From NCBI GenBank assembly GCA_903932685.1, contig CAIZGX010000004.1, positions 1-64,000 of the forward strand: a stretch of DNA of 64,000 nucleotides. Direction: 5' to 3'. Origin of the DNA: an uncultured Bacteroidota bacterium (GTDB taxonomy: Bacteria > Bacteroidota > Bacteroidia > Flavobacteriales_D > Sanyastnellaceae). Shown here in pieces: positions 35,534-42,298 of this stretch; the stretch's first letter is position 1; each line of letters starts with the position of its first letter. The notes under the pieces were generated by a model, which was not told the origin of the DNA, searched no databases, and saw only the letters and a program-made list of their open reading frames with translations. Position numbers and translations under genes: made by a program.

Positions 35534-35962
35534 TTAATTGCTTTTTTGTTGTGCTTGAAAAACTGTAGCGTACAACAAGATTTGTTTAACCATTGCTGCA
35601 AGCCCGTTGCTTCTTGTCTGACTTAAGTTCGATACCAAACCAATGTCATTCATGAAATGAATGTTGGCGTTCAATATGTCTTGTGGGGTTTCTTGATTGA
35701 ATACTGAAACAACCAAAGCCACCAATCCACGCGTAATAATGGCGTCGCTATCCGCTTCTAAATTCACAGTTCCATTTTCTTGAAGCGATGCTTTCAACCA
35801 CACCTTCGATTGACATCCAGCTACAAGCAAGTCGTCTTTTTTCTCATTATCGGTTAGGCCTTTCATTTCTTTTCCTAACTCAATAATGTGCTCGTACTTG
35901 TGCATCCACTCTTCGAAAAATGCAAATTCCTCAATGATCTCTTGTTGCTTTTGCTCTATCAT
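35534..35962 (-). CDS. sufE: Sulfur acceptor SufE
   Basis: 142 residues, normal length. The catalytic Cys (residue 50) is in DDLLVAGCQSKVWL. SufE accepts persulfide sulfur from the SufS cysteine desulfurase and passes it to SufBCD. The ATG overlaps the sufS stop by one base, indicating translational coupling. Confidence 0.93.
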   Translation of the reverse strand: MIEQKQQEIIEEFAFFEEWMHKYEHIIELGKEMKGLTDNEKKDDLLVAGCQSKVWLKASLQENGTVNLEADSDAIITRGLVALVVSVFNQETPQDILNANIHFMNDIGLVSNLSQTRSNGLAAMVKQILLYATVFQAQQKSN

Positions 35963-37194
35963 TATCTCAACATGTTTACGCTTTTGTTTAGCGCAGCAAT
36001 AAATAGTTCAACGTCTTCAACGGTATTGTAACAAGCGAAAGATGCTCTTACAGACCCCGTGGTTCCTAGCTTTTCCCAAAGAGGTTGTGTGCAATGATGC
36101 CCCGTTCTTACAGCAACACCTTGCTGATCGAGCAACGTTCCAATATCGGCAGAATGAATACCTTCTACATTAAAACTCAATACACCTACTTTGTTTGGAA
36201 GGTCTGCATAAACAAACGCTCCATCTATTTCTTTCAATCGTTCAGTTGCAGTCTTCAACAAGAAATATTCATGCGCATGCATGTTCTCTCTTCCAACTTC
36301 ATGACAGAATGAAATGGATTCGTTGAAGGCAATAACGGCTTCAATATTCGGGGTTCCCGATTCGTATTTGAAAGGCAATACATTGAAGGTGGTTCCTGTT
36401 ACAGATACTTTTTGAATCATTTCACCTCCGTATCTGTATGGAGGAAGTTTTTCAAGCAATTCTTTCTTTCCCCACAAAACACCAAGTCCAGTTGGACCGT
36501 ACATTTTGTGCGCAGAGAACAAGAAGAAATCGCAATTCAATGCTTGAACATTTACATCGAAGTGTGCTACTGCTTGCGCACCGTCGATCACTACGTAAGC
36601 ACCTGCGTTCCGTGCAAGTGCAATTAATTCTTGAATGGGATTAATGGTCCCCAGTGCGTTCGATACATAATTGAACGCGACGATTTTGGCGCGTTCTGTT
36701 ATCTCATTTTTTGCATAATCTAAATCCCATTCGCCCGAAGCGGTCATTGGGACATATCGAAAAACAGCCTTCTTCTTTTCCGCCAAAACTTGCCATGGAA
36801 CGAAGTTCGCGTGGTGTTCCATTTCAGTAACCCAAATCTCATCGCCTTCGTTCACCTCATTTTCCAAGATGGTAGAAAGCATGTTCACGCTATCAGTACT
36901 CCCTTGCGTGAAAATAATTTCTTCACGGAAATTTGCATGAAGCATTTCTGCTAAGGCGCTGCGTGTCGCTTCGAATTTTTCAGTTGAAGCATTCGCCAAG
37001 TAATGCGCGCCTCTGTGAATGTTCGCGTTCCATTTCGAATAGTATTCAGAAATGGAATCAATCACTCGCTGTGGCTTCTGCGTGGTAGCTGCGTTGTCTA
37101 AATAGACAAGTGGACGTCCGTATACCGTTTGATTCAACGCTGGGAATTGATTTCTCAATTCTTTCATTTCATGTTGAAGGGTAGGGTTATCCAT
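35962..37194 (-). CDS. sufS: Cysteine desulfurase SufS
   Basis: 410 residues. A PLP enzyme of the class-V aminotransferase fold: DNAATTQKP near the N-terminus, the PLP-lysine motif FSAHKMYGPTGLGVLWG, and the active-site Cys in VRTGHHCTQPLWEKLG, as in type-II desulfurases. It removes sulfur from cysteine for cluster assembly with SufE. An 18-bp palindrome (37203-37220) separates it from sufD. Confidence 0.95.
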   Translation of the reverse strand: MDNPTLQHEMKELRNQFPALNQTVYGRPLVYLDNAATTQKPQRVIDSISEYYSKWNANIHRGAHYLANASTEKFEATRSALAEMLHANFREEIIFTQGSTDSVNMLSTILENEVNEGDEIWVTEMEHHANFVPWQVLAEKKKAVFRYVPMTASGEWDLDYAKNEITERAKIVAFNYVSNALGTINPIQELIALARNAGAYVVIDGAQAVAHFDVNVQALNCDFFLFSAHKMYGPTGLGVLWGKKELLEKLPPYRYGGEMIQKVSVTGTTFNVLPFKYESGTPNIEAVIAFNESISFCHEVGRENMHAHEYFLLKTATERLKEIDGAFVYADLPNKVGVLSFNVEGIHSADIGTLLDQQGVAVRTGHHCTQPLWEKLGTTGSVRASFACYNTVEDVELFIAALNKSVNMLR

Positions 37195-37202
37195 ATGTTG
37201 AA

Positions 37203-37220
37203 ACCGAATGATTATTCGGT
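37203..37220. repeat. 18-bp palindrome ACCGAA-N6-TTCGGT, across the sufD stop
   Basis: ACCGAA-TGATTA-TTCGGT. It contains the sufD stop codon and the sufD-sufS spacer; arms extend to AACCGAAT/ATTCGGTT, so an RNA hairpin is possible. Confidence 0.8.
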
Positions 37221-38414
37221 TATGATTTCATTTTGAATAAGTGTTGCAAGAACATATTCCTTCCAACTTGGAATGGATATGCGATTCATTACATCTGAAG
37301 TAAATGCTGAAACCAATAGTCGTTTCGCTGATTCTTCGCTCAGTCCTCTTGCACGCAAGTAGAATAAGGCCTCTTCGTTGAATTGACCAGTTGTTGATCC
37401 GTGGCTGCACTTCACATCGTCGGCATAAATTTCCAACTCAGGCTTGGTGAACATGTTGGCGTTGTCGCTCATCATGATGTTCGCATTGCTTTGATAAGCA
37501 TTGGTTTTCTGCGCATCGATGTGCACATAAACCTTTCCGTTGAATACGCCTTTGCCGTTGTCGAACAACACGCCTTTGTATATCTCATTGCTGTAACAAT
37601 TCGCTACCTGGTGATCTACGAACGTATGATTGTCGATTAGCTGATCTTGCTTCGGGAAGTATGCTCCGCTAAGGAATGTTTCACAATGTTGTCCTTCAAT
37701 GCGAATGTTCAATTCGTTGCGCACCCATGTTCCGCTTGCTGTAACAGTCGTGATTTTAAAAACACTTTTTTCTGCTTGAGAAATAGACTCTCTCAACAAG
37801 ATACATTCGTTCTTTGAAGTGTTTTGAAGTTGGTGAATCTCAAGCTGCGCATATGCTTCAACGTGGGCATACACATTCACCAAGTGAAATGACTGCTCTG
37901 ATTCTCCTTTGAAGTCAACGGTGATTTTGGCAACAGAATTTTCTTTCGAAACAATGAATACGTATGGCGCACTCATGCACAAGTTCGAAGAGTTTCCCAA
38001 TTCAATGGCTAAAACTTCTTCAACCAATTTTCCTTTTTCTACTTCAATTAAAACAAGATCGTTCGAAGCGTTTTCGGATATCGCATCGAAGACGTCTGTT
38101 CTGTTTTCTTTCGACAATAAGGAAAGAATAGTTTCTTGCTGAGCAGCAGAAAGGTCTTTTCCCAACGTCAGTTGAATTCCAGCAATGCTCGTCGAAGGAA
38201 GGGTAATGAATCCGTTTTCAATGCGAATGGCATTTTCTAACGTGGTTGGATTTGCATTGCGTTCCGCTTGTTTCCAAGTGGTATCAATGGCTCCAACACG
38301 TGTGTATTTCCAAGACTCTACGCGGGTAGTTGGCATTGGAAAATCAGCGACCGAATGTTTGTTCGGTTTGAAGCTGAATGTGTTAGTGGGTTTTATTTCC
38401 GCTACAATACTCAT
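37212..38414 (-). CDS. sufD: Fe-S assembly scaffold subunit SufD
   Basis: 400 residues from ATG 38414. A longer frame reaches 38441, but the 38414 start forms an ATGA overlap with the sufC stop. SufD pattern: VESWKYTRV, a beta-helix middle, then [28 protein letters not shown] and SFTSD-like ends. It pairs with SufB and SufC in the SufBC2D scaffold. Palindrome copies lie in its N-terminus (coding PNKHS) and across its stop codon. Confidence 0.93.
38350..38367. repeat. 18-bp palindrome ACCGAA-N6-TTCGGT, in sufD N-terminus
   Basis: ACCGAA-TGTTTG-TTCGGT. It codes PNKHS on the minus strand, just before the conserved core of SufD. Confidence 0.8.
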
Positions 38415-39166
38415 TTTGCGTCTTCCGTTTCTTTTAACCAATCGTATCCTTTCTCTTCCAACTCCAACGCCAATTCTTTCGTTCCACTCTTCACAATTTT
38501 ACCTTTGTAGAGCACGTGTACGAAATCTGGAACAATATGATCCAAGAGTCTTTGGTAGTGTGTAATCACAACGAACGAGCGTTTCCCGTCGCGCATCGCG
38601 TTTACACCTTCAGACACAATGCGTAACGCGTCAATGTCAAGTCCGCTGTCGGTTTCATCCAATACGCACAACGATGGATCGAGCATGGCCATTTGAAATA
38701 TTTCATTGCGCTTCTTTTCTCCACCACTGAATCCTTCGTTCACTGCGCGATTCGCAAGTTGTCCGTCTAATTCAACCAATTGAGATTTTTCTTTCACCAA
38801 TTGCAAGAACTCTTTTGCGGTTAATGCTTCAAGCCCTCTGTGCTTGCGAATCTCGCCAACTGCAGCTTTCAGGAAGTTCATGTTGCTTACTCCTGGAATT
38901 TCTACCGGGTATTGAAACGCTAAGAAGAGTCCTTCTCTAGCGCGCTCCTCGGCAGCCATGTCTAATAAATCTTTTGAGTTGAATGTAACTGTTCCTTCGG
39001 TTACTTCGTAATCCTCTCTTCCTGCAAGGACAGAGGCAAGGGTACTTTTTCCAGATCCGTTCGGACCCATAATCGCGTGCACTTCGCCTTCACCAATGGT
39101 TAATGAAAGTCCTTTGAGGATCTCTTTCTCTTCAATGCGTGCGTGTAAATTTTCAATCTTTAACAT
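38411..39166 (-). CDS. sufC: Fe-S assembly ATPase SufC
   Basis: 251 residues. ABC ATPase: Walker [17 protein letters not shown] (~34-49), signature [13 protein letters not shown], Walker [14 protein letters not shown]. Unlike transporter ATPases it works with SufB/SufD in the cytoplasm to drive cluster assembly. Its TGA overlaps the sufD ATG. It follows sufB after 11 bp. Confidence 0.96.
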
Positions 39167-39177
39167 AATTATCTTTT

Positions 39178-40626
39178 TTATCCTACGCTTCCTTCCAAAG
39201 AAATGGCGAGTAATTTTTGTGCTTCAACTGCAAACTCCATAGGAAGTTTGTTCAATACATCTTTGGCATAGCCATTCACAATCATGCTTACGGCTTGCTC
39301 CTGGTCGAGACCGCGTTGCAAGCAATAGAAGATTTGATCTTCACCAATTTTTGAAGTCGTTGCTTCATGCTCCACTTTCGCGGTGCTGTTGTTCACTTCA
39401 ATGTATGGGAAGGTGTGCGCGCCACTAGTATCGGTCATTAGCAGCGAATCGCATTGCGAGAAATTTCTTGCATTGGTCGCGTTCTTTCCAATTTGAACCA
39501 ATCCTCTGTATGAATTCTGACTGTGTCCGGAAGAGATACCTTTTGAGATAATCGTGCTCTTGGTATTCTTACCAATGTGAATCATCTTCGTGCCTGTATC
39601 TGCTTGTTGGAAGTGATTCGTAACAGCTACAGAATAAAATTCACCAACGCTGTTGTCGCCCTTCAAAATACAACTTGGATATTTCCAAGTAACAGCGCTT
39701 CCTGTTTCCACTTGGGTCCATGAAATTTTAGAATTCGCTCCTTCGCACATTCCGCGCTTCGTAACGAAATTGAAGACGCCGCCTTTTCCATCTCTATCTC
39801 CTGGATACCAGTTTTGAACGGTGCTGTATTTTATTTCAGCATCGCGCATGGCAACCAATTCAACCACTGCAGCGTGCAACTGATTTTCGTCGCGTTGCGG
39901 AGCGGTGCACCCTTCCAAGTAACTCACGTAGCTTTCTTCGTCTGCAATGAGCAATGTGCGCTCGAACTGGCCTGTACCTGCTTCGTTAATGCGGAAGTAA
40001 GTGCTTAACTCCATAGGGCAACGAACGCCTTTTGGAATGTAGCAGAAAGAACCGTCTGTGAATACCGCTGAATTCAATGCGGCGTAGTAATTATCAGTTC
40101 TCGGAACAACCGTTCCAAGGTATTTCTTTATAAGTTCAGGGTGTTCTTGAACGGCATCGCTAATGCTGCAGAAGATGATTCCAAGCTCGCCTAATTTTTC
40201 TTTGAATGAAGTAGCTACAGATACAGAGTCCATCACGAAATCTACCGCAACGCCACTTAATCTTTTTTGTTCTTCAATGGAAATACCAAGCTTTTCCATG
40301 GTTTTGCGAAGCTCTGGATCCATTTCATCTAAACTGTTCAACACCTTTTTTTGCTTCGGTGCAGCATAAAAGGAGATGGCCTGAAGATTTGGTTTTTCAT
40401 ACTTCACATGCGCCCATTCCGGCTCTGTCATTTTCTGAAAAATCTTGAACGCCTCTAAACGCCAGTCTAGCAGCCATTGAGGCTCGTTCTTCTTCGATGA
40501 GATTAAGCGAATAATGTCTTCGTTCAATCCTGCCGGAGCTTTATCTGATTCTATGTTGGTTGTAAATCCGAATTCGTACTCTTTCGAGGTTACGTTTTCT
40601 AACAACTCATCGCCTTCGTAAGCCAT
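39178..40626 (-). CDS. sufB: Fe-S assembly scaffold subunit SufB
   Basis: 482 residues. Family landmarks: [68 protein letters not shown] and [12 protein letters not shown], whose Cys corresponds to the sulfur-accepting Cys of SufB. It is the core scaffold with SufC and SufD. Six bases separate it from sufA. Confidence 0.96.
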
Positions 40627-40632
40627 ATGTTT

Positions 40633-40959
40633 TTAGATTGAAAAGCTTTCACCACATCCACACGTGCGAGAGGCATTCGGATTGTTAAACACAAATCCTT
40701 TTCCGTTCAAACCACCCGTGTATTCCAATTCGGTTCCAACCAAGTACAAGAAGCTCTTGCGGTCTACAACCACGGTCACTCCATTGTCTTCAAAGGTCTG
40801 ATCACCGTCTTTCATTTCCGTGTCGAATTCCAGCTTGTACATAAGACCGCTGCATCCGCCACCATCTACGCCCACGCGAACGAATGCATGTTCAGGATGA
40901 CCCTCATCAGCGATGAGCTTTGCCACTTGTGCTTTCGCGCTTTCTGTAATTTTTATCAT
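40633..40959 (-). CDS. sufA: A-type Fe-S carrier protein SufA/IscA
   Basis: 108 residues from ATG 40959 (MIKITESAKAQVAKLI). The three cluster-binding cysteines are in GGGCSGLMY (Cys36) and TCGCGESF (Cys100, Cys102). It carries assembled clusters to target proteins. The frame stays open upstream to 41331, but that extension only translates the 36-bp repeat (RPFAEPCNASSV repeated) and the promoter; it is not part of the protein. First gene of the SUF operon. Confidence 0.95.
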   Translation of the reverse strand: MIKITESAKAQVAKLIADEGHPEHAFVRVGVDGGGCSGLMYKLEFDTEMKDGDQTFEDNGVTVVVDRKSFLYLVGTELEYTGGLNGKGFVFNNPNASRTCGCGESFSI

Positions 40960-41008: not shown

Positions 41009-41031
41009 CTATTTAGAAAAAATCTAAATAG
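41009..41031 (-). promoter_or_regulatory. Candidate operator: perfect inverted repeat in SUF leader
   Basis: CTATTTAGA-AAAAA-TCTAAATAG: perfect 9-bp arms with a 5-bp spacer, lying about 15-38 bp downstream of the -7 box and 50 bp before the sufA ATG. The sequence is shaped like sites of DtxR/MntR- or Fur-type metal regulators, but the regulator is unknown. It has no T tract in the minus direction, so it is unlikely to be a terminator. Confidence 0.6.
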
Positions 41032-41046
41032 AAGCCGTTCGGGCTG

Positions 41047-41079
41047 CAAAAGTAGTGCATTTAGGGTAGTTGATGCAAA
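41047..41079 (-). promoter_or_regulatory. SUF operon promoter
   Basis: On the minus strand: TTTG (41076-41079), 21-bp spacer, TACTTTTG (41047-41054). The leader to sufA is about 85 bases and contains the inverted repeat at 41009. Confidence 0.75.
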
Positions 41080-41087
41080 TGTTTTGC

Positions 41088-41243
41088 AAGGTTCTGCGAA
41101 AGGTCTTACTGAAGATGCGTTGCAAGGTTCTGCGAAAGGTCTTACTGAAGATGCGTTGCAAGGTTCTGCGAAAGGTCTTACTGAAGATGCGTTGCAAGGT
41201 TCTGCGAAAGGTCCTTCGGAAGGTGAAGCTTGCGCAGCACCTA
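41088..41243. repeat. Dodecamer cluster 2 with 36-bp higher-order repeat
   Basis: Twelve forward 12-mers followed by one inverted unit. The triplet AAGGTTCTGCGA-AAGGTCTTACTG-AAGATGCGTTGC is repeated exactly three times (41088-41195). AAGGTTCTGCGA, AAGGTCCTTCGG, AAGGTGAAGCTT and inverted GCGCAGCACCTA follow. It lies between the 3' end of the outer-membrane protein gene and the SUF -33 box. Confidence 0.92.
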
Positions 41244-42175: not shown

Positions 42176-42298
42176 AAGGTGCGTTGCAAGTTATTCCTTC
42201 CGAAGGACCTTTCGCAGAACCTAGCAATTCAATTTCTGCAAGACCTTTCAACGAACCTTCCTTCGGACCTTGCTTTCGGCATCTTTCGTAAGAATCTT
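42176..42298. repeat. Dodecamer cluster 3 (2 direct + 8 inverted units)
   Basis: AAGGTGCGTTGC, AAGTTATTCCTT, then inverted CCGAAGGACCTT, TCGCAGAACCTA, GCAATTCAATTT, CTGCAAGACCTT, TCAACGAACCTT, CCTTCGGACCTT, followed by 14- and 13-base variants. It ends four bases before the -7 box of the polyprenyl synthase gene. Confidence 0.85.

Follow-up and report, generated by a model that had tools for sequence, protein, structure and literature searches.

The window, by which we mean the whole 64,000-nt stretch of DNA that was analysed, carries on its minus strand a suf operon with the gene order sufA-sufB-sufC-sufD-sufS, and a perfect inverted repeat lies upstream of its first gene (Table 1). This repeat, which the initial annotation had reported at 41009-41031, is present there letter for letter as CTATTTAGA-AAAAA-TCTAAATAG, 50-72 nt upstream of the ATG of sufA (start at 40959, minus strand). 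Further upstream is the sequence TTTG-N21-TACTTTTG (41079-41047, minus strand), which we take to be the -33/-7 promoter form of Bacteroidota. Transcription of suf would then start near 41040-41043, and the palindrome would occupy approximately +10 to +33 of the transcript, which agrees with the earlier claim that the site lies just downstream of the predicted start of transcription. Promoters of the -7/-33 type are mentioned for this group in the available part of a study of Riemerella anatipestifer (PMC5609570).

Table 1. Features of the suf locus, with positions in the 64,000-nt window.
Feature	Position	Strand	Basis
sufS, cysteine desulfurase	35962..37194	-	TIGR01979, 521 bits
sufD, start codon uncertain	37212..38411	-	TIGR01981, 247 bits
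sufC, ATPase	38411..39166	-	TIGR01978, 363 bits
sufB	39178..40626	-	PRK11814, 893 bits
sufA (erpA-like A-type carrier, 108 aa), operon gene 1	40633..40959	-	TIGR00049 and PRK13623, above cut-off
Candidate operator, perfect inverted repeat CTATTTAGA-N5-TCTAAATAG	41009..41031	-	sequence; conserved in 7/7 genus and 75/85 family leaders
Putative -7 promoter element TACTTTTG (consensus TANNTTTG)	41047..41054	-	sequence; -7-like box likewise 16 nt from the site in 6/7 genus leaders
Putative -33 promoter element TTTG, separated from the -7 element by 21 nt	41076..41079	-	sequence; Bacteroidota consensus

Perfect 9-bp inverted repeats with a spacer of 3-10 occur eight times in the window, at five distinct places, as compared with a mean of 4.1 in 12 Markov-1 simulations; bare palindrome symmetry is thus within chance expectation here and proves nothing alone. 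The operator sequence itself is found at ≤3 mismatches at this sole place in the window, and the 2.37-Mb assembly of the same genome (96% complete) contains a single exact copy, which is the one at suf, and no copy with one mismatch. At ≤3 mismatches, the 25 matches of the operator pattern in this genome are not above the 27 of the reversed control pattern. It is evolutionary conservation, and not symmetry, that shows the function of the site.

Directly upstream of the suf promoter, a 36-bp tandem repeat extends over 41074-41242 (three overlapping 72-nt copies at a spacing of 36), and a diverged inverted copy of it lies at 42177-42271, beyond the next gene. The relatives within the genus vary in this region: G002 shows a repeat-like end after masked bases, and a different repeat-like sequence is present in G004 and G008.

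Conservation and placement of the palindrome at suf promoters

The identical palindrome, spacer included, is found in all seven suf leaders of the genus (n = 9) that are on a contig, and G001 keeps it although the remaining leader sequence has diverged. From the 114 genomes of the family, 85 sufA leaders were obtained; in the rest, the sufA start was neither among the matches listed nor on the contig. The best match in these leaders has perfect arms in 34, one mismatch in 6, two in 15, three in 20 and more in 10, so that 75/85 carry a site at ≤3 mismatches, compared with 7/1700 shuffled sequences and 0/85 for the reversed pattern, which never falls below 5 mismatches. Up to 1200 bp upstream of sufB were also scanned in 80 named suf loci, nearly all from Bacteroidota and one from Ignavibacterium. 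A site at ≤2 mismatches is present in 39 of them (reversed control, 2/80) and one at ≤3 mismatches in 49 (reversed control, 8/80). Winogradskyella, Algibacter, Aequorivita, Roseivirga, Lunatimonas, Algoriphagus and Chitinophaga each contribute one or more loci to the 39; a second Winogradskyella and a second Chitinophaga locus fall outside them, and the suf loci of Chryseobacterium (two) and Riemerella (one) have 5-6 mismatches. Conservation upstream of sufA and sufB in relatives, which had been named as a test of the site, is therefore what was found. Information is 1.0-2.0 bits per position in the arms and 0.09-0.72 bits in the spacer. At the position pair 6/16, symmetric double changes from A-T to G-C occur in 8 of 49 distinct sites and asymmetric changes in 9, and symmetric paired changes of this kind would be expected from recognition by a two-fold protein.

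The position of the 75 family suf sites at ≤3 mismatches was read against a -7-like box of the relaxed form T[A/T]NNTTTG, which was not recognised in 7 of the leaders. The site begins 11-16 nt after this box in genera g1, g5, g7, g10, g11 and g12, ends 3-8 nt before it in g2, g3, g4, g9, g13, g15, g16, g17, g18 and g20, and lies 26-27 nt before it in g21. The palindrome thus overlaps or abuts the putative suf promoter in most of the genera read, which is the placement of a repressor operator, and a protein bound to it should get in the way of RNA polymerase. The earlier description of a two-fold symmetric, operator-like site is borne out by this placement together with the conservation, and the palindrome is almost certainly a true operator.

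A chance palindrome, or mere conservation of a promoter without any regulator, would agree with the near-expected count of bare palindromes in the window and with the left arm of the suf site in g17 and g20, which seems, when read by eye, to overlap the -33 element. This explanation is refuted by the family-wide data, in which the motif is conserved at varied positions relative to the promoter and recurs at iron genes (127 sites, compared with 3 for the control; see below), and we consider it hardly credible. A function of the inverted repeat as a hairpin in the suf leader RNA, through stability, translation or attenuation, is likewise very improbable. The leader RNA does fold well with the 9-bp hairpin (-20.1 kcal/mol, z -2.4), but in the ten genera whose site stops 3-8 nt short of the -7 box it would be untranscribed, and many unrelated genes also have the palindrome at their start or promoter. 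Because it lies outside the transcript, before the -7 box, in at least 10 of 19 genera, the suf site acts as DNA.

Companion genes and the respiratory operon

At ≤1 mismatch, the pattern gives 127 sites in 80/114 family genomes and 3 sites for the reversed control. The initial annotation had proposed a search for the palindrome near iron genes, and this search, run in the 114 relatives, leads to TonB-dependent receptors, HmuY, DUF6607, DUF4856 and hemA-like genes. Further neighbours of the sites in relatives are NqrA, an SdhC-like gene, a ZIP transporter, small cysteine-rich proteins and a NarL-type response regulator; an ABC exporter and a T9SS-plug-like lipoprotein are neighbours without an evident link to iron, and some family sites fall within reading frames or have no gene start next to them. 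The small cysteine-rich proteins of g17 (L309, L317, L339, L340, L342 and L343), which possibly bind metal, are preceded by palindromes with 0-1 mismatch.

Weak sites in the genome of the window were kept only with orthologous or promoter-placed support. In front of a TonB-dependent receptor gene of this genome, a 2-mismatch site lies 7 nt from the ATG. The nuoA match of this genome, judged by eye to be about 100 nt from its -7 box, was dropped. A cox3-like match, located between two cox3-like genes in a gene cluster and 43 nt from a non-standard -7 box, is tentative, and so are the sdhC-like matches in the genome of the window (G000) and in G025, whose -7 box, at a distance of about 30 nt by eye, is poor.

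Another 2-mismatch site in this genome precedes a gene for a 479-residue multihaem cytochrome c, which is followed by an ActB-like gene. Judged by these features, the two genes presumably form the start of an alternative-complex-III operon, and the cytochrome gene is likely to head it. A cytochrome (ActA) match was obtained in 99 genomes and 70 leaders were taken, of which that of G026 was unusable, its match starting inside the gene. The site is present at ≤3 mismatches in 53 of the 69 usable leaders, compared with 0/69 for the reversed control and 11/1380 shuffles. Measured to the relaxed -7 box, it lies 44-45 nt upstream in 26 of the 53 leaders and 54-56 nt upstream in 23; two others are at 46 (56 with the strict box), one is at 32 and one is without a reading. 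The distance class goes with the genus (44-45 in eight genera, 54-56 in nine), and the counts therefore do not represent independent events. Three g2 genomes, examined apart, have a perfect-arm cytochrome site at 45, two g3 nqrA leaders have a 1-mismatch site at 44, and no suf site was found at 44-45 or 54-56 nt from the nearest -7 box. The cytochrome site is lost in 8/8 g20, 3/3 g18 and 5/8 g17 leaders read. The two distance classes differ by approximately one helical turn, which is what a direct upstream activator needs, and direct activation of the respiratory operon by the same protein that acts at suf is likely.

In 41 of the 53 cytochrome leaders, the stretch from the palindrome to the -7 box matches a loose direct repeat of the TGACA/GTGAC type with a period of about 11 bp, a raw count made without a chance control; L373, L387, L388 and L422 are examples. 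The sites of OmpR/PhoB-type regulators resemble such direct repeats, and a second regulator may act in this part of the cytochrome leader.

Identity of the binding protein

The Fur box predicted in R. anatipestifer is ATTTAGAATTATTCTAAAT, and purified Fur shifted promoter fragments with the putative box, according to the available part of PMC5609570; Fur-box and gel-shift support for the rhuB promoter is given in the accessible text of PMC10986502, and a later paper, as far as its text was available, cites an E. coli-type box instead (PMC7976709). The suf operator is identical to ATTTAGAATTATTCTAAAT in 14/14 arm bases and in the N5 spacing, and only the spacer bases differ. The Riemerella Fur sites described in the available text precede TonB receptor genes and hmuR, and the motif described here is likewise present at TonB receptors.

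The genome of the window contains one confident FUR match (80 bits, G000:C46:37478-37828), and a match of similar strength is found in 9/9 members of the genus. Among solved structures, this Fur is closest by sequence to 4raz, which we take to be the Fur of Magnetospirillum, and residues at what are presumably the metal ligands are invariant across 10 aligned Fur proteins. Autoregulation of fur through the palindrome was rejected, since 0/30 fur leaders have a site within 4 mismatches. Flavobacterium psychrophilum, which belongs to the same class, is reported, in the available part of PMC9331221, to have a single Fur-family gene, which resisted deletion.

Across the family, a site is present in 64/81 Fur-bearing and 16/33 Fur-less genomes (Fisher p 0.003, uncorrected for relatedness), and among genomes at least 90% complete in 34/42 with Fur and 4/9 without. 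The list of Fur-bearing genomes was made by hand, and the Fur-less class comprises 28 genomes in which FUR had no match (for 8, by elimination) and 5 with only a second, weak FUR-like group; the hand list holds 51 genomes at ≥90% completeness, compared with 50 under a count that also limits contamination. Within single genera the association is not evident: in g20, the site is present in 3/4 Fur-bearing and 8/13 Fur-less genomes, which is no difference, and in g17 in 5/7 and 5/15, respectively, which is not significant (p 0.17). Many g17 and g20 genomes, some of them 93-99% complete (e.g., G052, G053, G061, G068, G085 and G096), gave no match to the main Fur. G053, G061 and G067 (95-98% complete, Fur not found) keep a moderate cytochrome site, and G053 and G067 also keep a moderate suf site, whereas both sites are degraded in the Fur-bearing g17 genomes G054, G057, G058 and G069, with 4-6 mismatches before suf and 5-8 before the cytochrome gene. 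In R. anatipestifer under low iron, suf genes rise in the wild type and the fur mutant alike, and genes for succinate dehydrogenase, an NADH-ubiquinone oxidoreductase subunit and cytochromes fall in both, as described in the accessible part of PMC5609570; a drop of cytochrome genes in low iron is described for Riemerella strain CH-1 as well, in the part available of PMC5429918. The one Riemerella suf locus scanned here (R. columbipharyngis, L103) has a leader without a good site (5 mismatches). The Fur-less genomes that keep the site and the Fur-independent responses of Riemerella leave room for a second regulator. The Fur-less g17 and g20 genomes sit beside Fur-bearing relatives of the same genus, and Fur may have been lost repeatedly in this one family.

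Rrf2 proteins of the IscR/SufR type are the usual suf regulators in other phyla, and Rrf2 genes are present in 42/114 genomes of the family, so that an Fe-S sensor of this type, encoded elsewhere, might be imagined to bind the site. The initial annotation was right that no Rrf2-type gene adjoins the SUF operon, and PF02082 has in fact no match anywhere in this genome or in the eight other members of the genus, which include every perfect-site leader of the genus; moreover, the targets of the motif are iron and haem uptake genes. Rrf2 as the binder is rejected by the family searches and largely refuted for the genus, and we give it a minimal likelihood. A DtxR/IdeR/MntR-type binder was rejected on a search of the genome of the window, in which PF02742 (the DtxR C-domain) had no match; the same search was positive in 11/14 control genomes. 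Of the two halves of the earlier proposal, an Fe-S or iron switch, the iron reading is favoured, since the motif coincides with a Fur box from the literature and the search for Rrf2 gave no match, and the Fe-S-sensor reading is the less supported.

A tentative alternative is that a different regulator acts at suf and the respiratory operon and that Fur serves at most the uptake genes, the lead candidate being a NarL/FixJ-type response regulator. Strong sites, in genera other than that of the window, are present at the gene for such a protein: at a distance of 1-18 nt upstream of the start in g3, g13, g15, g16 and g17, overlapping the called start in g4, and, in g20, 11 nt before the start (L328) or inside the called frame (L330). 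In the genome of the window, a weak 3-mismatch site lies 16 nt before L428:755-1438, named a response regulator by its resemblance to the L178 protein (GerE and Response_reg domains). Besides L428, response-regulator genes with the palindrome at their start are those of L176-L178, L181, L182, L189, L197, L198, L200, L208 and L328. A site at the transcription start of its own gene is what an autoregulated response regulator would show, but a promoter-placed site in this gene is also expected of a plain Fur target. The odd symmetry of the palindrome, which is centred on a base, suits Fur, unlike the known sites of NarL-type proteins, which are even-centred. The persistence of sites in Fur-less relatives and the Fur-independent suf and respiratory responses to iron in the available part of the Riemerella study (PMC5609570) speak for a different regulator, but the motif equals the published Fur box, and a single motif is common to uptake and suf genes. 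We consider it unlikely that the site belongs, in Bacteroidota, to a non-Fur regulator, possibly a self-regulated NarL-type protein, which would sense the supply of iron or of Fe-S, repress Fe-S assembly through promoter sites and directly activate the cytochrome/alternative-complex-III operon through sites one helical turn apart; if true, this would explain the Fur-free adjustment of suf and respiration to iron in Riemerella.

Proposed iron-dependent control by a putative Fur operator

The reading that we favour, with a probability of about 0.64, is that the palindrome is a Bacteroidota-type Fur box serving as the suf operator and repressing suf when iron is plentiful; we infer all three of its components, namely Fur as the binding protein, repression as the effect and iron as the signal. 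When the iron supply is sufficient, an Fe-Fur dimer, probably formed by the product of G000:C46:37478-37828, would sit just downstream of the suf promoter and block transcription, and in iron shortage Fur would release the site, so that the Suf proteins would be made. By extension, Fur would activate the cytochrome/alternative-complex-III operon when iron is plentiful, from a site that precedes the -7 box by 44-45 or 54-56 nt. The joint effect of suf repression and cytochrome activation would be an iron-sparing response without a RyhB-like RNA.

In E. coli, the iron-sensing repressor Fur shuts off sufABCDSE through a GATAAT-type box, with IscR and OxyR as additional regulators. The arrangement proposed here likewise places an iron-sensing repressor on suf, but no Rrf2 match corresponding to E. 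coli IscR is present. IscR and SufR, of the Rrf2 family, act on palindromic operators at suf promoters, and the suf operator described here is similarly palindromic; it differs from those systems in the lack of an Rrf2 match and in the uptake genes that accompany it. The likeness to the Fur box of R. anatipestifer extends over the 14 arm bases and the N5 spacer (PMC5609570 and PMC10986502, as far as available). In the accessible text of the former paper, however, suf is outside the Fur-box table and is iron-responsive in the fur mutant too, whereas here the site is at suf itself.

Activation by Fur has a precedent in Neisseria, in which, according to the part available of PMC3788343, Fur directly activates norB, pan1 and nuoA, a promoter-overlapping site represses and an upstream site activates. 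The Neisseria activation sites described there are approximately 100 bp upstream of the start, as opposed to 44-45 or 54-56 nt before the -7 box here, and the target here is the cytochrome/alternative-complex-III operon instead of norB, pan1 and nuoA. Activation of an aerobic complex by Fur is no general rule, because an E. coli Fur study reports, in its available part, that Fur inhibits the genes of aerobic respiration and activates those of anaerobic respiration (PMC10219339). Among the matches listed in the literature search, the titles and abstract openings contain no report of Fur control of suf in Bacteroidota, nor of a directly Fur-activated alternative complex III in this phylum.

The motif may be used to annotate iron regulons across the phylum. 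The finding concerns how Bacteroidota without IscR, SufR or RyhB tune Fe-S assembly and respiration to iron, and one conserved site, shared by suf, the uptake genes and the respiratory operon, would provide a direct and testable answer, in which the position of the site predicts repression or activation.
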